NCBI RefSeq assembly: GCF_025997915.1
Contig: NZ_AP026677.1
Coordinates: 248,001 to 312,000 of the forward strand
Source of the DNA: Aquiluna sp. KACHI24
GTDB taxonomy: Bacteria; Actinomycetota; Actinomycetes; Actinomycetales; Microbacteriaceae
DNA length: 64,000 nucleotides
Direction of reading: 5' to 3'
The notes under the pieces: model-generated
Seen by the model: only the letters and a program-made list of their open reading frames with translations
Told to the model about the DNA's origin: nothing
Databases searched by the model: none
Shown: positions 45,788 to 58,368 of the stretch, piece by piece
Numbering within the stretch: position 1 is the stretch's first letter
Layout of the letters: every line of letters starts with the position of its first letter
Position numbers and translations under genes: made by a program

Positions 45788-45869
45788 CAATTTCTAAGAA
45801 CTCGCGCTTATCAACAACACAAATTCTCTTAGCCGGAGGTCAAATAACTGACGTGATGATTGCAGGGTG

Positions 45870-46481
45870 ATGGATGCCCTATTGCAACTTATTGCTCCGG
45901 TGAAGTGTGTTTGTTGCGGCAAGAGCTCGGTCCTGTGTTGCCCAGAGCACCTGACTGAGCCCGGGGTCGTAGCTCTGTCAGGGGTCCCGATGCACTACCT
46001 AACTCCACTGGATGATGATCGGCTGAGGACGATGGTTGCATTTAAAGACAAGGGTGTCACTGCCTTAGCAGCGCACTATGCCAAGGCAACCAGGTTCTAC
46101 TTGGAAGCTAAGGGGTTAACGGATGTGGTTGTTGTGGTGCCACCGAGAAATCCCCGGAACTACCGCACGAGGGGCTTTCATCCAGCACTGTTGGTTGCCA
46201 ACAAGCTTGGCCTGCGGGTCCGAAGCGCAAGAGCACTCAAAAGACTGGCCGATCAGAGAACGCTGAGCGCTCTACACCGTGCGCAAAACCTCTCAGGTGC
46301 TTACGAGCTTTCAAGCCTGGCGGGGGAGTCGGTGCTGCTCTTTGATGACGTGATGACAACCGGTGCCACGCTTAGAGAGCTCCACCGTGCTGCAACTGAA
46401 GCTGGGGGTGAGGTGGTGGCCGGCTGTGTGCTAGCTATGAGATTTCAGGAATTTGTCCCAACAGATTTGAAAAAGGCGTAG
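45870..46481 (+). CDS. comF: ComF-family phosphoribosyltransferase
   Basis: 203 residues. An N-terminal zinc-ribbon-like Cys cluster (CVCCG, CCPEH) precedes a type I phosphoribosyltransferase fold with the PRPP loop VLLFDDVMTTGATLREL (about residue 152) and VVVPPRNPRNYRTRGFHPA upstream. It is named after the competence protein ComFC, but here it stands alone and its substrate is unknown. The ATG 45870 overlaps the TGA of a tiny upstream frame (45853-45870). GTG 45867 is the alternative start. Confidence 0.82.
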   Translation: MDALLQLIAPVKCVCCGKSSVLCCPEHLTEPGVVALSGVPMHYLTPLDDDRLRTMVAFKDKGVTALAAHYAKATRFYLEAKGLTDVVVVVPPRNPRNYRTRGFHPALLVANKLGLRVRSARALKRLADQRTLSALHRAQNLSGAYELSSLAGESVLLFDDVMTTGATLRELHRAATEAGGEVVAGCVLAMRFQEFVPTDLKKA

Positions 46482-47174: not shown

Positions 47175-49814
47175 TTGGTGTCAATCATTGACAAACTGCT
47201 GCGCGCGGGTGAGGGAAAGCTACTTCGTAGGCTCCAGTCAATTGCGCAGGAGGTCAACGCTCTCGAGCAGAACTTTGTCGGTCTAACTGATGAAGAGCTA
47301 CGTGATGAGACCAGACAGTTCCGTGAGCGCTACGCAGCCGGTGAGACTCTGGATGACCTACTCCCTGAGGCCTTTGCCGCAGTTCGCGAGGCTGCCAAGC
47401 GCACGATTGGTCTTAGACACTTTGATGTTCAGCTCATGGGTGGTGCCGCCCTGCACCTAGGCAACATCGCTGAGATGAAAACCGGTGAAGGTAAGACGCT
47501 GGTCGCAACCACCGCTGCTTACCTGAACGCAATTCCTGCCAGGGGCGTTCACGTTGTAACCACGAATGACTTTCTTGCCGGTTACCAGTCTGAGTTGATG
47601 GGCCGTGTGTTCCGCGCCTTGGGTATGACCACTGGTTGCCTGGTTTCAGGTCAGGAGCCTTCGGTTCGCAGAGCGCAGTATGAGTGCGACATTACCTATG
47701 GAACCAATAATGAGTTTGGTTTTGATTACCTGCGCGACAACATGGCGCTGAATAAGTCAGACCTCGTGCAGCGCGGTCACTTCTTCGCCATCGTCGACGA
47801 GGTTGACTCCATCTTGATCGATGAGGCAAGGACCCCACTGATCATTTCTGGTCCTGCCTCTCCAGAGGTAAACCGCTGGTTCGGTGTCTTCTCGAAGCTG
47901 GTTCAGACGCTTGAGGCTGAGGTTGACTACGAGGTTGACGAGAAAAAGCGCACGATCGGTGTGCTGGAGTCCGGTATCGACAAGGTTGAAGATTACCTGG
48001 GCATCGACAATCTCTATGAGTCAGCCAACACCCCGCTGATCTCTTTCCTCAACAACGCGATTCGCGCCAAGGAGCTGTTCCGCAAGGACCGCGACTACGT
48101 TGTGGTGAACGGCGAGGTTCAGATCGTTGATGAGCACACTGGCCGCATCCTGCCAGGTCGTCGTTACAACGAGGGCATGCACCAGGCGATTGAGGCCAAG
48201 GAGGGCGTGGCCATCAAGGCCGAGAACCAGACCCTTGCCACCATCACTCTGCAGAACTATTTCAGGATGTACCAAAAGCTCTCCGGTATGACTGGTACTG
48301 CCGAGACCGAGGCCGCAGAATTCATGTCAACCTACAAGTTGGGTGTGGTTCCAATCCCGACAAACAAGCCGATGATTCGTCTTGACCAGCAGGACCTGAT
48401 CTTCAAAAACGAAGAGGTCAAGTTCCGCATGGTGGTTGAGGACATCGCCACTCGCCACCAGACCGGTCAGCCGATTCTGGTTGGTACCACCTCGGTTGAA
48501 AAGAGCGAGTATCTCTCGAAGCTGCTAGCCAAGCGTGGTGTCAAGCACGAGGTTCTAAATGCAAAGAACAACGCTCGAGAGGCAGCCATTGTTGCCCAAG
48601 CGGGTAGATTCGGAGCGGTAACCGTAGCCACCAACATGGCCGGTCGCGGTACCGACATCATGCTCGGTGGTAACGCCGAGTTCTTGGCTGTTGCCGAGAT
48701 GCACAAGCTTGGTCTTGACCCTGTTGAGCAGGCCGAGGACTACGAAAAAGCTTGGGACGAGATCTTCGAAAAGATCAAAGCTCAGGTCGCTACCGAGGCT
48801 GAGAAGGTGCTGGCCGTAGGTGGACTCTACGTACTGGGCACCGAGCGTCACGAGTCCCGCCGCATCGACAACCAGCTTCGCGGTCGTTCCGGTCGCCAGG
48901 GTGACCCGGGTGAATCCAGGTTCTATCTCTCACTCACCGACGACTTGATGCGATTGTTCAATTCAGGTGCGGCTGCGGCTTTGATGAACCGCTCATCGGT
49001 GCCGGATGAATCCGTGATTGAGTCAAAGGTAGTATCTCGGGCCATTGCCTCAGCGCAGTCCCAGGTCGAGGCTAGAAACGCTGAGATTCGCAAGAACATC
49101 CTCAAGTACGACGATGTGATGAACCGCCAGCGCGAGGCAATTTACTCAGACCGCCGTCATATCCTCGAGGGCGACGACATCTCTGGCACTTTCCAGCAGT
49201 TCTTGGAGCAGGTTGTCACCGAGGTGGTTCGCAATGAAGTGACCGACACTTCGGTTCACGATTGGGATCTGCCAGGCCTATGGAATACGTTGTCTCAGAT
49301 TTACCCGGTTGGTCTTGAGGTTGATGAGGTTCTTGAAGAGGCTCGTTCGATCTCCAAGGTTTCAGTCTCATGGCTTATCGAGGAGCTGCTCTCCGATGCT
49401 CGACTTGCCTATCAGAAGCGAACCGAGGACGTTGGTGAGCAGGTCATGCGTGAACTCGAGCGCCGCGTGATGCTTTCGGTAATTGACCGTAAATGGCGCG
49501 ATCACCTCTATGAGATGGATTACCTCAAGGAGGGAATCGGTCTGCGTGCAATGGCTCAGCGAGATCCGCTCGTGGAATACCAGCGCGAGGGTTACAACAT
49601 GTTCTCGGACATGATGGCCGGCATCCGCGAAGAGGCAGTGCAGTTCCTGTTCAACGTCGAAATCAAGCAGACGGTGACCGAGGTTCAGCCACAGCCAATC
49701 CCGCAGGGTCTGACCTACACTGCGCCAAGCGAACCAGGAACTCCGGCAAAGTCCGAACCTGCCAAGCCGCAGCAAAATAAGGATGGCTCTGGAAGTAGCT
49801 TCTTCCGCGGCTAA
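47175..49814 (+). CDS. secA: Preprotein translocase ATPase SecA
   Basis: 879-residue motor of the Sec pathway. DEAD motor with Walker [12 protein letters not shown] (about residue 102), [16 protein letters not shown] (about residue 208), second half with [13 protein letters not shown] (about residue 491) and [17 protein letters not shown] (about residue 571). The C-terminus ends in SSFFRG without a zinc-binding tail. Start is TTG 47175 or GTG 47178, with AAGGGAG upstream. Only one SecA is in the window. Its stop shares CTAA with the convergent Rv3235-type gene. Confidence 0.96.
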
Positions 49815-50170
49815 ATCAGGCTGATGTCGGTGATCCGATACCTGGTGTGAACCAGCTCGGCCCTAATCGAAACTGCCTTAGTTACCCCGCTAATACGAAG
49901 GATCACCACGCCTTGAAAGGCGTGGTGATCCGTGAGAAAGGTCTGGGTTGTCTTCAGACAGACCTCGGGCCTGGATCGCAGTCCGGTTAGAGCGCGTTGT
50001 CTGGCTTCCCGTTGTGCTCGTTGGCAGACGTCGTAGTAGGTCCTGTCAGAGAGCCACCTTGCCAGCTGCTCAGGCCTTCTCACCCCCGCTAAAACTTCAA
50101 TGTAAGCAGCAGAGATCTCGGCAAAGAACGGTGCTGGGTCAACTTTCTTGGTAGCGACTTGGTCTGACAT
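49811..50170 (-). CDS. Rv3235-family protein
   Basis: 119-residue cytoplasmic protein typical of the small Ala/Arg-rich family encoded next to secA in actinobacteria. Visible features: a helical half with [20 protein letters not shown] and a beta-strand half with [19 protein letters not shown]. Function unknown. ATG with AAGGGGG 5-6 nt upstream. Family assignment from pattern and context. Confidence 0.65.
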
Positions 50171-50336: not shown

Positions 50337-50915
50337 ATGGCGATTCGAATGGGAAGAAAAATCCCCAATTGGTTGATACTGGCTGGAGCCGGAGTTGTGG
50401 TCTGTGTTGGACTTGTGGTCAGCGTCTTGGCAAAACCCTTGCCGGAATACTTAGTTGCCGCGGCCGACATCAAACCGGGTAGCGTGCTGAGCGAGCAGGA
50501 CTTTGTTTCTGTTCCCCTTGATTTAGGTGAGATTCAAAATTACATAAGGGCAGATCAGTTGCCCAGCAATCAAAGCGTTGTGCGAGTGGTTCGTAAGGGT
50601 GAGCTGCTGTCCGCCTTCGACCTGACCGGCGAACTGGATCCAAATTTCACAGCACTTCGTTTAGTCCCCGAGCTTCGACCCGCAATTTCCAAAGTCGGCT
50701 CTTTTGTTTCGGTTTGGCGAGCACTCGAGGGGGAGACTGGCTTTGAGATGCAGCGCCTGGTGGAGCGCGCGGAGGTGCTGGCTATTGAGGAGGGAGAGGG
50801 GTTATTTGCCGACAACGTTCCTGAGATCGAGATAAGACTTGGCATCGAACAGTCAGTCTTTGTGATGCAGGCCATCTCCCAGGAGAGTTCGATCTTCTTG
50901 GTGCCGGTGTCATGA
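50337..50915 (+). CDS. SAF-domain protein, CpaB/RcpC-like
   Basis: 192 residues with one N-terminal membrane helix (about 15-32) and an SAF domain (about 38-105; AAADIKPGSVLSEQDFVSV and VRKGELLSAFDL), the arrangement of the pilus assembly protein CpaB/RcpC. The remaining C-terminal part is shorter than in full CpaB. It overlaps the ATPase gene by 4 nt. No other Tad pilus gene (cpaF, tadB, tadC or flp) is in the window, so a pilus role is doubtful. Confidence 0.72.
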   Translation: MAIRMGRKIPNWLILAGAGVVVCVGLVVSVLAKPLPEYLVAAADIKPGSVLSEQDFVSVPLDLGEIQNYIRADQLPSNQSVVRVVRKGELLSAFDLTGELDPNFTALRLVPELRPAISKVGSFVSVWRALEGETGFEMQRLVERAEVLAIEEGEGLFADNVPEIEIRLGIEQSVFVMQAISQESSIFLVPVS

Positions 50916-51775
50916 GCTTGATTGATTTGGAGCGCAGGGTAGAACCCAAGCCTGAGTCACTGCAGCGAGATGCTTCCATCGTTTCGGTCTGGGGTTCCGC
51001 CGGAAGTGGGAAAACCAATCTTGCAGTGAACTTGGCGTTTGAACTTGCTTCGATGGGGCACCAGGTTTGTCTTGTGGATTGCTCCACCCGCAGACCGGCC
51101 ATTGCCCCATGGTTGGGCATCACCGAACCGGGTCCCGGAATTCTCGGGCTTTTGCGCCTAGCTCGACAAGATCGACTCGACCAAGAGCAGTTTCTTCGGC
51201 TCAGCCACGAGATTTGTTTTGGCAATCACTCACTCGCTTTGATCAGCGGGATATCTCAACCTGCGCGCTGGCCAGAGTTTGATGGTGAAGCAATAAACGC
51301 ACTGCTTGATTGGATCTCCAGGCAATACAGTTTCGTGGTTTTGGATTTAGATTCAGACCTAGAGCGAGGGCTCATAAAACTCGAGGCGTCCATTGAGCGA
51401 AACCAGCCCACCGCGAGCCTTCTAGAGCGATCAACCAGGGTCTTGATGGTCTCAGGGAGCGACCCAGTATCTGTGAATCACACGCTCATGGCAGTCAGGG
51501 ATCTAACCTGTGATTACGAGCTGATCGCCAATCGCCTTCGAAGCTCGGTGCTGGGAAGAGACCCAGCTAGGCAGGTCCGCGACACCCTCTATGAACTGCT
51601 ATCCAAGGAGTTGATCTCAGTCTTGCCGGATGATTCAGAGGCTGTGGATCAGTCCATGTTGAAATCCCAACCGCTATTGATGATTGCCAAAAACTCCAAA
51701 TTGCGTGAAGCCATCAGAGCGCTGGCGATCGAACTAATCAAACACCGCGAGGGTAGACTCGAGAATCGTGAGTGA
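50912..51775 (+). CDS. MinD/ParA-like ATPase (CpaE type)
   Basis: 287 residues of a SIMIBI-class P-loop ATPase. Walker A is GSAGSGKTN (residues 28-36); the Lys that marks the deviant ParA/MinD loop (expected at position 29) is Ser. Switch-like VCLVDCSTRRPA (about residue 53) and Walker B VVLDLDSDLE (about residue 145) follow. ATG overlaps the SAF gene, and the end overlaps the kinase gene by 8 nt, so the three products are probably made in a fixed ratio. Relatives position Tad pili or partition cargo; the role here is unknown. Confidence 0.72.
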   Translation: MSLIDLERRVEPKPESLQRDASIVSVWGSAGSGKTNLAVNLAFELASMGHQVCLVDCSTRRPAIAPWLGITEPGPGILGLLRLARQDRLDQEQFLRLSHEICFGNHSLALISGISQPARWPEFDGEAINALLDWISRQYSFVVLDLDSDLERGLIKLEASIERNQPTASLLERSTRVLMVSGSDPVSVNHTLMAVRDLTCDYELIANRLRSSVLGRDPARQVRDTLYELLSKELISVLPDDSEAVDQSMLKSQPLLMIAKNSKLREAIRALAIELIKHREGRLENRE

Positions 51776-53183
51776 GACCGTTCAGCAACAGCAGTGGTTG
51801 CGATCGCTGATTGCCGACTGGCAACTCATTTCCGACATGGCATTTGCAGACCTAGTGCTTTGGGTTCCAGTGGGAGCAAAGCTTCAAGCCTTCGCTCACG
51901 CCAGACCATCCACTGCTCCCACGCTCTTTCATCGAGATCTCACCGACAGCTCTCCTCGCTACGACTGGATCGAACTGATTGAGGCTGCATTCTCATCGGG
52001 TGAGGCTCAGGTCTCTGGCTCGATCACACAAGTTGACGACCTATCCGCAAGAATTTCCGCTTTTCCAGTTTTAGCTCCAGGTAGCAAGAAACCGCTGGCG
52101 GTCATCTCCCGTCACACGAATCTTTCGCAGCCTCGCTATACCAACCGACTGCAAATCAATTTCAACGAGTGTGCAACGCAGCTCTTGGAAATGGTGGCCA
52201 GGGGTGAGTTTCCAATTCCCGAGGCTGGCACCGCAGCCAAGCGTGGGGCTCCTCGACCAAACGACGGCTTTATTCGACTAGACCAAGCCGGACGGATTAT
52301 TTTTGCCAGCCCAAATGCGTTGTCGGTCTTCAACCGAGCAGGTCTTCAGGGTGAACTTGAGGGGCGATTGCTTGCCGAGGAGATCACTGGCACCCAGTCC
52401 AAGTTGGTTCAGATAGACGAGGGTCTCCCTTTGGTCTTGACCGGCAAGGCAGCTTGGCGCACCGACATTGAATTTCCAGATTTCACGATCGCTGCTCGCT
52501 CGATCCCGCTAACCAAGGGCTCAGAGCGCATCGGTGCGATCGTGCTATGTCGAGATGTGACCGAGCTTAGGGTCAGGGAGCGTGAACTGATCACGAAGGA
52601 TGTCACGATTCGTGAGATCCACCACCGAGTCAAGAACAACCTTCAGACTGTCGCGAGCCTTTTGCGGATTCAGTCGCGGCAGACTTCGAGTGAAGAGGTC
52701 AAGGAATCGCTGTCGCAAGCGATGCGCAGAGTGAGCGCAATCGCAGTTGTGCACGATGTGCTCTCTGAAGGCATTGACCAAGAGGTTTCTTTCGATCAGA
52801 TCTTTAAACGAATCCTGCTCTTGATCCCCGAGATCGCCGGTTATCACACCACAGTGAAGACCGAATTTGTGGGGAGTTTTGGAGACATGGCGGCTGCTCG
52901 CTCAACTCCATTGGCGTTGGTGCTGACCGAGGTGGTTGCCAACGCGGTCGAGCATGGTCTGAGCGATCGGTCTGGCACTATCACCGTAAGCGCGGAGCGG
53001 GAGAAGCAAAACCTTCACATCGAGATTATTGATGATGGTGCTGGGTTGCCTGAGGGCAAGGTTGGCAGCGGTTTGGGCACGCAGATCATTCGAACCCTGG
53101 TGGAGTCGGAGTTGCGCGGAAAGATTAACTGGACCTCGCCAATTCGTGGCGGGACCAAGGTGGTTATTGACCTACCGGTTTAG
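51768..53183 (+). CDS. pdtaS: PdtaS-like soluble sensor histidine kinase
   Basis: 471 residues, no membrane helix. N-terminal GAF-like sensor (residues 1-140), a PAS-like middle (about 165-275), a HisKA_2 helix with phospho-acceptor His in IHHRVKNNLQTVASLL (about residue 284), and a HATPase domain with VANAVEHGLSDRSG and DDGAGLPEG. In mycobacteria PdtaS (Rv3220c) signals to the RNA-binding regulator PdtaR. The gene starts with GTG inside the end of the ATPase gene. Its stop shares TTAG with the convergent whiB1-like gene. Confidence 0.85.
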   Translation: MSETVQQQQWLRSLIADWQLISDMAFADLVLWVPVGAKLQAFAHARPSTAPTLFHRDLTDSSPRYDWIELIEAAFSSGEAQVSGSITQVDDLSARISAFPVLAPGSKKPLAVISRHTNLSQPRYTNRLQINFNECATQLLEMVARGEFPIPEAGTAAKRGAPRPNDGFIRLDQAGRIIFASPNALSVFNRAGLQGELEGRLLAEEITGTQSKLVQIDEGLPLVLTGKAAWRTDIEFPDFTIAARSIPLTKGSERIGAIVLCRDVTELRVRERELITKDVTIREIHHRVKNNLQTVASLLRIQSRQTSSEEVKESLSQAMRRVSAIAVVHDVLSEGIDQEVSFDQIFKRILLLIPEIAGYHTTVKTEFVGSFGDMAAARSTPLALVLTEVVANAVEHGLSDRSGTITVSAEREKQNLHIEIIDDGAGLPEGKVGSGLGTQIIRTLVESELRGKINWTSPIRGGTKVVIDLPV

Positions 53184-53434
53184 CCTGCTCGGCGTGCGCG
53201 TGCGTAGCGACGCTTTAGGGATCTGCGCTCGTCTTCGCTGAGTCCGCCCCAAACACCAGTGTCCTGGTTTTCCTTGATTGCGTACTCGAGGCATTGAGCC
53301 GAAACTGAACACTGTCTGCAGATTGATTTTGCCTGCTCGATTTGCTCTAGCGCTGGTCCAGTGTTGCCTACTGGGAAGAAGAGCTCAGGGTCTTCATTGA
53401 GGCATCGGGCCTGGTTTAGCCACTGCATATCCAT
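53180..53434 (-). CDS. whiB1: WhiB-family regulator (WhiB1-like)
   Basis: 84-residue iron-sulfur regulator. The cluster cysteines are Cys11, Cys39, Cys42 and Cys48 (ARC, ICRQC, AQCLEYAI), then GVWGGLSEDERRSLKRR and a basic tail. Length and position beside pdtaS match Rv3219 (WhiB1). ATG with AGGA about 11 nt upstream. WhiB1-type proteins bind SigA and respond to nitric oxide in mycobacteria; here this is by homology only. Confidence 0.88.
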   Translation of the reverse strand: MDMQWLNQARCLNEDPELFFPVGNTGPALEQIEQAKSICRQCSVSAQCLEYAIKENQDTGVWGGLSEDERRSLKRRYARARRAG

Positions 53435-53553: not shown

Positions 53554-53928
53554 ATGAACATAAAACTGACCGTGGCAATAGCTATCTTGGCGATGGAATC
53601 TTTCGCGCTCATCGCGGTTACACTCTGGTCGCTCTTAGCAATCTTGCAGGGAAACACCTTCTCTTTGACGAGCTCGCTCTTCCTCTTTGGACTCTTGATC
53701 GCGGCTTCACTCTGGGCCGGCAACATAACTTTTGGACTAGCCAGGCGCAAGCGCTGGTCTCACACGGCAGCCATGGTTTTACAGCTATTGATCGCTTCGA
53801 TTGCGACCGCAAGCTTTTCCGGAGAGTTTGCCTCACCGGTTATCGGCTGGGGACTTTTGATCCCTGCGGCGTTGGGTTTCTACCTGCTTTTTTCGAGACA
53901 GGTGAGAGTGGAATTCGGTAAGGACTAG
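53554..53928 (+). CDS. Small membrane protein of unknown function
   Basis: 124 residues with four predicted membrane helices (about 8-28, 38-58, 68-90 and 95-115). A short positively charged loop (LARRKRWSHTAAM) lies between helices 2 and 3. No recognisable family. It stands alone, and its stop shares CTAG with the convergent bcp gene. Confidence 0.6.
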   Translation: MNIKLTVAIAILAMESFALIAVTLWSLLAILQGNTFSLTSSLFLFGLLIAASLWAGNITFGLARRKRWSHTAAMVLQLLIASIATASFSGEFASPVIGWGLLIPAALGFYLLFSRQVRVEFGKD

Positions 53929-54398
53929 CCGATTCTCTTGAGCAGCATGTTGGTGTGGCCGGTCGCCTTTACGTTGTAGAGGGCGTCGACCACCACACCA
54001 TTCTCATCAATCAAGATTGTTGAACGCAGAGCTCCCTTGTAGATACGTCCGTAGAGAGACTTCTCTCCATATGCGCCGTAGGCGCGGTGCGCATCCATGT
54101 TCTCATCGCTAAGCAGGGCGAAGGTGAGTTCATGTGCATCTTCAAAGCTCTTCAGCTTCTTTACGGGATCAGGCGAGACACCCACGATTTTGTAGCCCTT
54201 CGCCTCGAATTGAGGCAAAGCATCTTGGAAATCGGCGGCTTCTTTGGTGCAGCCGGGGCTCCCTGCAGCGGGGTAGAAGTAGAGAACGGTTTTGGTTCCG
54301 AGTAGGTCCGAGAGTGACTTAGTTTCGCCATCTTGATTCAACAAGCTGAAATCTGGAGCCTTATCTCCAGGACTCAGTCGCTGCACTACGTCGGACAT
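53925..54398 (-). CDS. bcp: Bcp-type peroxiredoxin lacking the resolving cysteine
   Basis: 157-residue thiol peroxidase of the AhpC/TSA superfamily. The peroxidatic Cys50 is in SPGCTKEA; the resolving Cys of 2-Cys Bcp (five residues later) is Ala55, and there is no other Cys, so it must act as a 1-Cys enzyme. ATG 54398 with GAGG upstream is preferred over the GTG at 54404. A paralogue with both cysteines is at 57907-58368. Confidence 0.88.
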   Translation of the reverse strand: MSDVVQRLSPGDKAPDFSLLNQDGETKSLSDLLGTKTVLYFYPAAGSPGCTKEAADFQDALPQFEAKGYKIVGVSPDPVKKLKSFEDAHELTFALLSDENMDAHRAYGAYGEKSLYGRIYKGALRSTILIDENGVVVDALYNVKATGHTNMLLKRIG

Positions 54399-54488
54399 CA
54401 ACACCTCGGCTTTGGTTTATAGAAACATTATTCATCCGAAAGCTGGCCCGAGTCTCAGTTCGCCAATAGCGTTTGCGAAAAAAGTTCG

Positions 54489-57302: not shown

Positions 57303-57910
57303 TGGAGCTGAGCAACTGGCTTCTCTACACGGCGGCTGCGCTTGGTCTGTCCCTTACCCCGGGGCCTAATGGTTTGTTGGCGCTGACTCATGGCGCGCTC
57401 TACGGAACCAAACGAACGGTCGCGACAATCTTGGGTGGGGGAGTTGGCTTCACGATTGTCATCGGGTTGTCCATGTTTGGTATCGGTGCCATGCTTGCAG
57501 CCAATGCCGAGCTGATCTTTTGGCTGAAGTGGCTTGGCGGCGCATACCTGGTTTTCCTTGGCATCCAAGTTTGGCGGTCGGAACCGATCGGAGTGGCAAC
57601 ATCGCAGGGCGGTAAGTCGAGACCTTGGTCGCTTTTTCAAGCAGGCCTTTACTCAGCTGTCTCAAACCCCAAGGGCATCTTGTTTTTTGTAGCCTTTTTG
57701 CCGCAGTTCATTGAGCCTCAGAAACCTCTGCTGTGGCAGTTCCTGATAATGGCGGCCACGTTCTTCGTTATCGAGTTCTGCTACGAATTGACGGTCGCTG
57801 CGCTGGCCGACAGGATCACGCCATGGCTGAAAAAGGTTGGCAAAAACTTCAACCGAGTCTTTGGCTCGGTGTTTATTGCTATTGGGGTTTTGCTGCCGCT
57901 GCGCGGTTAG
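57302..57910 (+). CDS. LysE/RhtB-family exporter (first copy)
   Basis: 202-residue membrane exporter with about six helices. The N-terminal LTPGPNGLLALTHGALYGTK is the RhtB/LysE signature. Substrate may be an amino acid or homoserine lactone-like compound. ATG 57302 overlaps the previous stop by 1 nt (TGATG), with TTG 57299 as the alternative. Its stop shares TTAG with the convergent bcp2 gene. Confidence 0.83.
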   Translation: MELSNWLLYTAAALGLSLTPGPNGLLALTHGALYGTKRTVATILGGGVGFTIVIGLSMFGIGAMLAANAELIFWLKWLGGAYLVFLGIQVWRSEPIGVATSQGGKSRPWSLFQAGLYSAVSNPKGILFFVAFLPQFIEPQKPLLWQFLIMAATFFVIEFCYELTVAALADRITPWLKKVGKNFNRVFGSVFIAIGVLLPLRG

Positions 57911-58368
57911 ATACCTAGCTCGTTTTTGAGCATCTCGATGTGACCCTTCGCCTTCACGTTGTAAAGCACGTGGGTTAGGGCGCCGCTCTCATCTACTACG
58001 AATGTTGATCGAATGGTGCCCATGTAGGTCTTGCCGTACATGCTCTTCTCTCCGTATGCGCCATAGGCCTGCTGCACGGCGTTGTCTGGGTCGGAGAGGA
58101 GGTCGAAGTTCAGGTTCTCCTTGTCCTTGAATTTCTTTAGCTTGCCAGGCAGGTCAGGGGAGATTCCCAAGACCGTGTAGCCAGCTGATTTCAAGGTGTT
58201 GATGTTGTCTCTTAGCTCGCAGGCCTGAGTGGTGCAGCCCGGGGTTGATGCCGCCGGGTAGAAGTACACCACTACCTTTTGACCGGCTAGTGAATCCAGG
58301 CTGACTGACTGGTCGTCTTGATTCTTCAGGGTGAACTTAGGGGCTGAATCTCCGACTTTTACGCTCAT
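57907..58368 (-). CDS. bcp: Bcp-type peroxiredoxin, 2-Cys form
   Basis: 153-residue thioredoxin-dependent thiol peroxidase. The peroxidatic Cys45 and resolving Cys50 are both present in PGCTTQACEL, unlike the paralogue at 53925. It overlaps the crtYf gene by 4 nt, so it is in the carotenoid cyclase operon and may protect the pathway or its products from peroxides. Confidence 0.92.
   Translation of the reverse strand: MSVKVGDSAPKFTLKNQDDQSVSLDSLAGQKVVVYFYPAASTPGCTTQACELRDNINTLKSAGYTVLGISPDLPGKLKKFKDKENLNFDLLSDPDNAVQQAYGAYGEKSMYGKTYMGTIRSTFVVDESGALTHVLYNVKAKGHIEMLKNELGI

Follow-up and report, generated by a model that had tools for sequence, protein, structure and literature searches.

The window analysed here is a stretch of 64,000 nucleotides from Aquiluna sp. 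KACHI24, corresponding to C1:248001-312000 of a single-contig genome of 1,459,348 bases (1.46 Mb). It includes three consecutive genes that predict a SAF-domain protein, a MinD-like ATPase and a PdtaS-type sensor histidine kinase. The gene order of the locus is secA, DUF6459 (reverse), SAF, MinD-like ATPase, PdtaS and WhiB (reverse). The three open reading frames (ORFs) are all on the forward strand, and those of the SAF protein and the ATPase share 4 nt while those of the ATPase and the kinase share 8 nt, in agreement with a preliminary description of this DNA. The gene calls made there (CpaB-like, CpaE/MinD-like and PdtaS-like) are also upheld by the Pfam matches given below. In the cell's Tad (Flp) pilus, the SAF protein most likely serves as the RcpC/CpaB subunit and the ATPase as the TadZ/CpaE subunit, both encoded away from the two tad loci. 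Genes at the locus, in window coordinates, are as follows.

47175..49814, forward strand: secA, the upstream anchor conserved at the locus (ORF; the SecA marker is upstream in most related loci)
49811..50170, reverse strand: DUF6459 protein, a conserved neighbour (Pfam PF20060, E 8.2e-16; found in relatives with and without the SAF-ATPase cassette)
50337..50915, forward strand: RcpC/CpaB-like SAF protein of 192 aa, with an N-terminal helix, a SAF beta-clip and a second beta-rich domain (Pfam SAF, E 3.3e-6; structure model; PDB match to RcpC, 9gzr)
50912..51775, forward strand: TadZ/CpaE-like MinD-fold ATPase of 287 aa, with the P-loop GSAGSGKT and without a long N-terminal extension (Pfam CbiA, E 8.3e-7; structure model; co-occurrence with tad-1 TadA)
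51768..53183, forward strand: PdtaS-type sensor histidine kinase of 471 aa (GAF, PAS-like, HisKA_2 and HATPase_c; GAF_PdtaS, E 1e-28; match to M. tuberculosis PdtaS 2ykf, E 1.8e-47)
53180..53434, reverse strand: WhiB-family regulator, a conserved downstream neighbour (Pfam Whib, E 3.7e-25)

The SAF domain of the first protein of the trio scores 28 bits against a Pfam cut-off of 21. Its structure model (predicted local distance difference test, pLDDT, 90.8; predicted template modelling score, pTM, 0.59) consists of a helix at residues 11-31, which is a probable membrane anchor, and two beta-rich domains. When the model was compared with the PDB using Foldseek, the sole entry with E < 1e-3 was RcpC of the Tad pilus (9gzr, E 3.1e-7). 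RcpC is also the only match listed by VIA whose alignment extends beyond 80 residues (145 residues, Z 9.6), and the root mean square deviation of 9.2 over this length indicates that the two domains sit differently in the two proteins. The VIA Z scores tie RcpC with FlgA and antifreeze SAF domains, and only the Foldseek E value and the aligned length single out RcpC. A match to flgA_cterm (2.1e-5; Pfam/NCBIfam) falls under that profile's own cut-off. The SAF gene adjoins the ATPase gene in all 27 cassette loci read from the family of the window (26 and the window itself; one is truncated by its contig end). The same holds for 20 of 20 stretches read outside the family.

The ATPase matches Pfam CbiA (MinD/ParA) over the cut-off, and its model (pLDDT 88.7) has the MinD/ParA fold, the best VIA matches being a ParA-family protein (3ea0, Z 28.8) and MinD (3r9j, Z 27.2). 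The Walker A motif, WGSAGSGKT, is a canonical P-loop, as had been reported in the preliminary description. The form GxxGxPGR[TS], which is one residue longer than the classical P-loop and has Arg in place of Lys, is carried by 137 of 145 distinct homologues from the fetched loci (copies distinguished by 70 residues from the P-loop; not a random sample). Canonical GxxGxGKT was found in only three of these sequences, all of the window's genus, and the homologue in L072 has the longer form but with Lys. TadZ has been described as binding ATP and having low ATPase activity, with an atypical Walker A (PMC6668835). Only 26 residues precede the P-loop in the window ATPase, and the N-terminal receiver-like domain expected of TadZ/CpaE is absent; a further N-terminal part of approximately 110 residues or more is present in 11 of 20 aligned relatives, based on predicted starts. 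A contig search with the window ATPase alone found no relative, and use of a closer alignment as the query retrieved 303, with Salinibacterium, Cryobacterium, Glaciihabitans and Agreia among the best 80 of the 303. TIGR03815, the profile of actinobacterial Ssd, proved useless as a genome-wide marker, as 150 of 150 family genomes match it and none does so over the cut-off.

Beside the trio, no gene for a pilus ATPase, TadB/C or pilin is seen, as noted previously, and the genome has two tad loci at other positions. When it was searched for secretion ATPases, two matches exceeded the cut-off. A tad-1-like locus at approximately C1:912.5-918.1 kb contains TadA (T2SSE, 1.2e-35), TadB (T2SSF, 0.0023, under the cut-off), TadC (T2SSF, 1.4e-8), a 51-aa membrane protein and TadE-like ORFs, two of the small ORFs resembling TadE without Pfam support and another having a weak TadE/G match (0.018). 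A tad-2-like locus at approximately C1:1103.2-1105.5 kb, next to a topoisomerase gene, contains TadA (2.5e-31), a single TadB/C ORF (T2SSF, 2.8e-4, under the cut-off), a 55-aa Flp-like protein with the sequence GAITAEY (DUF4244, 3.7e-18) and two ORFs resembling pilins, of which one matches TadE/G weakly (0.0081). Neither SAF nor TadZ was seen at either locus when both regions were read and compared with Pfam. The genome also includes comEC (6.5e-48), comEA and one prepilin peptidase gene (2.5e-10). The set for a Flp competence pilus of the Micrococcus luteus type, namely tad-1, tad-2 with a single TadB/C ORF and Flp, a prepilin peptidase and comEA-comEC, is present, with the tad types assigned by gene order and several of the small ORFs lacking Pfam support. 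Both loci match the gene order of M. luteus tad-1 and tad-2 (PMC4322843), the pairing being made by order and not by sequence. A 635-aa exported-looking repeat protein is encoded inside the tad-1-like locus on the opposite strand, between TadC and the 51-aa protein (L066:5869-7776; C1 approximately 913.9-915.8 kb).

The distribution of the ATPase was compared with that of TadA in 150 genomes, taken as Microbacteriaceae. The ATPase was scored as present at E <= 1e-9, with weaker matches in G007, G031, G035, G043, G055, G087, G105 and G115 scored as absent because they are partial, and TadA was scored as tad-1-type at a best E < 1e-50 (E < 1e-110 at the class level). An ATPase homologue is found in 109 of the 150 genomes. 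Both genes are present in 106 and neither in 39, and of the other five genomes 3 have only the ATPase and 2 only TadA (Fisher p 5.6e-30, ancestry ignored). Among the five discordant genomes, G012 and G039 are 82-83% complete, G140 has a TadA fragment, G111 has partial TadA matches, and G082 is a true exception. Of the 39 genomes with neither gene, 38 retain PdtaS, and it is therefore tad-1, not PdtaS, that the ATPase follows. At the class level, 197 genomes comprised 81 with both, 77 with neither, 22 with the ATPase alone and 17 with TadA alone. On a PdtaS tree of 39 loci, the presence/absence label changes at least 5 times, compared with 10.5 times in shuffles. Part of the loci that were read had been picked by presence or absence of the ATPase, before TadA was searched for in other genomes. 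Partial or interrupted tad-1 TadA genes in G037, G071, G111 and G140 represent apparent decay, with the pieces in G037 and G111 lying tens of kb apart.

Conservation of the trio across Microbacteriaceae had been proposed as a check in the preliminary description. Gene order was compared in 56 family genomes (those with both genes among the matches listed; not a random sample). In 42 of them the ATPase gene precedes that of PdtaS in the same orientation, the domain matches being separated by < 400 nt, and in 14 the two are 0.4-5.8 kb apart or inverted. The order of the trio is beyond chance. None of the 20 other-family stretches has PdtaS directly beside the ATPase. A relative of the ~196-aa upstream ORF and a reverse-strand HTH gene are each present in 19 of them. 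The HTH protein of one Microbacteriaceae locus belongs to Pfam HTH_17, the domain named for Mlut_14660 of M. luteus. The HTH marker was detected in 17 of the 27 family cassette loci, but neither in the window nor in the two loci of congeners; a search of the window's own genome, which had no positive control, also found no HTH_17 protein. In two genomes without SAF and ATPase genes, a cassette-type HTH gene adjoins pdtaS (L086:8632-8886 and L093:8270-8524).

A tad-1-type TadA follows the ATPase in 4 of the 20 other-family stretches (L164, L166, L167 and L168). In other families, 23 of 42 same-contig pairs of ATPase and tad-1 TadA are within 20 kb, 22 of the 23 with TadA downstream on the same strand, and 35 of the 42 are within 110 kb, 32 of the 35 having that arrangement; the 42 include G421 (35 kb, opposite strand), and the shortness of some contigs in itself places their genes near each other. 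No SAF/ATPase marker is beside TadA in any of 18 family tad-1 loci (own included; 7.6-19 kb each). The downstream position of TadA in other families suggests an ancestral joint SAF-ATPase-tad-1 locus that has since been split in the family of the window. The idea that the tad loci supply a TadZ of their own was rejected: among the family tad loci read, a TadZ-like gene beside TadA was seen only in a third, different Tad type. In all three examples of that type (L192, L193 and L194) the TadZ-like gene is immediately upstream of TadA.

A report on M. luteus (PMC8467076), ranked first in literature searches on TadZ, SAF and Actinobacteria, already describes a close version of the operon. It comprises SAF RcpC/CpaB, CpaE/TadZ and PAS sensor kinase genes together with a divergent HTH17 gene, and the authors note that rcpC and tadZ could sit outside tad loci. 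Knockout of the SAF gene led to a 10^4-fold loss of transformation and to increased activity of the comEA/EC promoter in LB, which are repressing conditions, and the SAF substitution G27D reduced transformation > 10^5-fold. Mutations in the HTH17 gene were recovered in the same screen. An earlier study found both M. luteus tad loci to be required for Flp pili and transformation, and reported a TadZ ortholog to be missing (PMC4322843, 2015). What is new here is the tie of the pair to tad-1, and the classical P-loop set against GxxGxPGR[TS] in the homologues.

The SAF protein and the ATPase thus appear to act in trans, as RcpC and TadZ, for a probable competence pilus built by tad-1 and tad-2. 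The SAF protein, held in the membrane by its N-terminal helix, would form a ring outside the membrane and so lead the filament across the cell wall; an outer-membrane secretin is not expected in a Gram-positive organism. The ATPase would mark the assembly site and recruit the TadA/B/C machine, and the two tad loci would supply the motor, the membrane platform and the pilins. The pilus served by the pair is probably used for DNA uptake and, by analogy with M. luteus, would act together with ComEA-ComEC. The analysis itself shows gene content, predicted folds, co-occurrence and synteny; ring, site selection and DNA uptake are taken from precedent, and that this pair acts so here, in trans, is inferred.

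The preliminary description had proposed a surface module in place of a pilus, in which the SAF protein and the ATPase pass a surface or polarity signal to PdtaS, and PdtaS to PdtaR, which acts on RNA. The tight gene overlaps in the window and the frequent position of the ATPase close upstream of PdtaS (42 of 56, among the matches listed) are in keeping with this, as is the presence of one ANTAR (PdtaR-type) match in the genome (E 2.8e-20). However, the two genes are further apart or inverted in 14 of the 56 and never directly adjacent in the 20 other-family stretches, and the ATPase instead tracks tad-1 TadA (106/39/5 of 150). Tad loci elsewhere in need of these subunits, which the preliminary description had named as contrary to its proposal, were found in the form of the two loci above. 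Since PdtaS persists in genomes without the pair, the proposal is rejected as the principal explanation and is considered very unlikely. As part of the Tad pilus reading, PdtaS is an old neighbour that may merely share a transcript with the pair. It might nevertheless have a regulatory link with the pilus, since the GAF domain of M. tuberculosis PdtaS is listed as a binder of cyclic di-GMP in a review table (PMC10519070); a literature search joining PdtaS with 'pilus assembly' returned nothing but a review. In a more elaborate version, PdtaS would be the pilus's own sensor, wired to TadZ and RcpC, with pilus state or cyclic di-GMP tuning DNA uptake via PdtaR in actinobacteria, and the re-formed classical P-loop of the genus would make TadZ an active positioning ATPase; this is improbable.

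The findings in M. luteus could also indicate that the pair mainly regulates competence genes, namely expression of comEA/EC, and is not a structural part of the pilus, given the raised promoter activity in the SAF knockout and the recovery of mutations in the neighbouring HTH17 gene from the same screen. Yet that knockout loses transformation 10^4-fold despite the raised promoter (PMC8467076), and both the RcpC-like fold with an N-terminal helix and the tie to TadA argue for a pilus part, making a mainly regulatory role unlikely. That the genes are a non-functional leftover, as might be supposed from the lack of tad genes beside the trio, the failure to find the HTH_17 neighbour of many relatives and the absence of the N-terminal extension of the ATPase, is scarcely credible. 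The frames are open, identity to a congener is 46% for the ATPase and 43% for the SAF protein, the P-loop is canonical, and a relic is rejected because complete-looking tad loci exist in the genome. The remnant of a pilus locus suggested previously was nearer to the evidence than a surface module, but the genes appear to form an outlying part, itself intact, of a pilus locus that has been split.

Several points weigh against assignment of the pair to the Tad pilus. The profile matches of the SAF protein (Pfam and NCBIfam, E <= 1) include no CpaB/RcpC profile, and the ATPase scores 20.8 bits against TIGR03815, for which the cut-off is 154.45, so it is not filed as Ssd. Gene order and weak profiles are the basis for the TadE/G and pilin labels and for the pairing of the loci with tad-1 and tad-2, and the M. 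luteus operon was compared by text and not by sequence. Some other TadA is kept by at least 31 of the 39 family genomes that have neither the ATPase nor tad-1 TadA, which is a poor fit to the need for both tad loci in M. luteus. Across the class, the two genes disagree in 39 of 197 genomes, and in one family of small genomes (f29, e.g. G323, G342 and G448) 10 of 15 have a tad-1-type TadA and no ATPase match at 1e-20; TadZ of those genomes is missing or very divergent. The PdtaS tree of 39 loci provides one independent pair on supported branches and five on all branches, too few for a sign test to have power. The authors of the M. luteus report also leave a direct role of the operon in the pilus still to be verified (PMC8467076, 2021).

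Other features of the window lie outside the trio. A gene that we take to encode a ComF-like phosphoribosyltransferase is upstream of secA (45867-46481), and two paralogues, presumably peroxiredoxin-like, are on the reverse strand approximately 3.5 kb apart (53925-54404 and 57907-58368). A hairpin of 14 perfect pairs is within the DUF6459 coding region (49900-49931). Scans for promoters and terminators gave counts close to those of shuffled sequence (1 compared with 1.5, and 5 compared with 3.9, respectively), and a scan with Rfam matched no family.

The presence/absence tie in the family and the downstream synteny elsewhere name tad-1 as the likely partner of the SAF/CpaE operon. Natural transformability has been described for Rhodoluna lacicola and Aurantimicrobium photophilum (PMC11577799), and such freshwater actinobacteria make the role of the pair in the pilus testable.

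Among known systems, RcpC of Pseudomonas aeruginosa (9gzr) forms a dodecameric ring with a single membrane helix as its anchor, and the modelled SAF protein resembles it in having one N-terminal helix and two beta domains, but at 192 aa it differs in size from the RcpC construct (residues 33-303), and RcpC docks on an outer-membrane secretin (PMC12307814). The ATPase family resembles TadZ/CpaE and actinobacterial Ssd (TIGR03815) in its MinD fold, tie to tad genes and atypical P-loop, whereas the window copy has a classical P-loop, no N-terminal extension and a score far under the TIGR03815 cut-off. The kinase has the GAF-PAS-HisKA_2 arrangement of M. tuberculosis PdtaS but, unlike it, is encoded by a gene that overlaps a tadZ-like gene. 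The divergent HTH17 gene of M. luteus was not found in this genome, and the M. luteus report has no occurrence of the name PdtaS. The likeness to Mlut_14660 and Mlut_14650-40-30, judged from the text of that report and not from sequence, lies in an operon of SAF, CpaE/TadZ and PAS kinase genes that is separate from the two tad loci, with comEA-comEC also present in the genome (PMC8467076).

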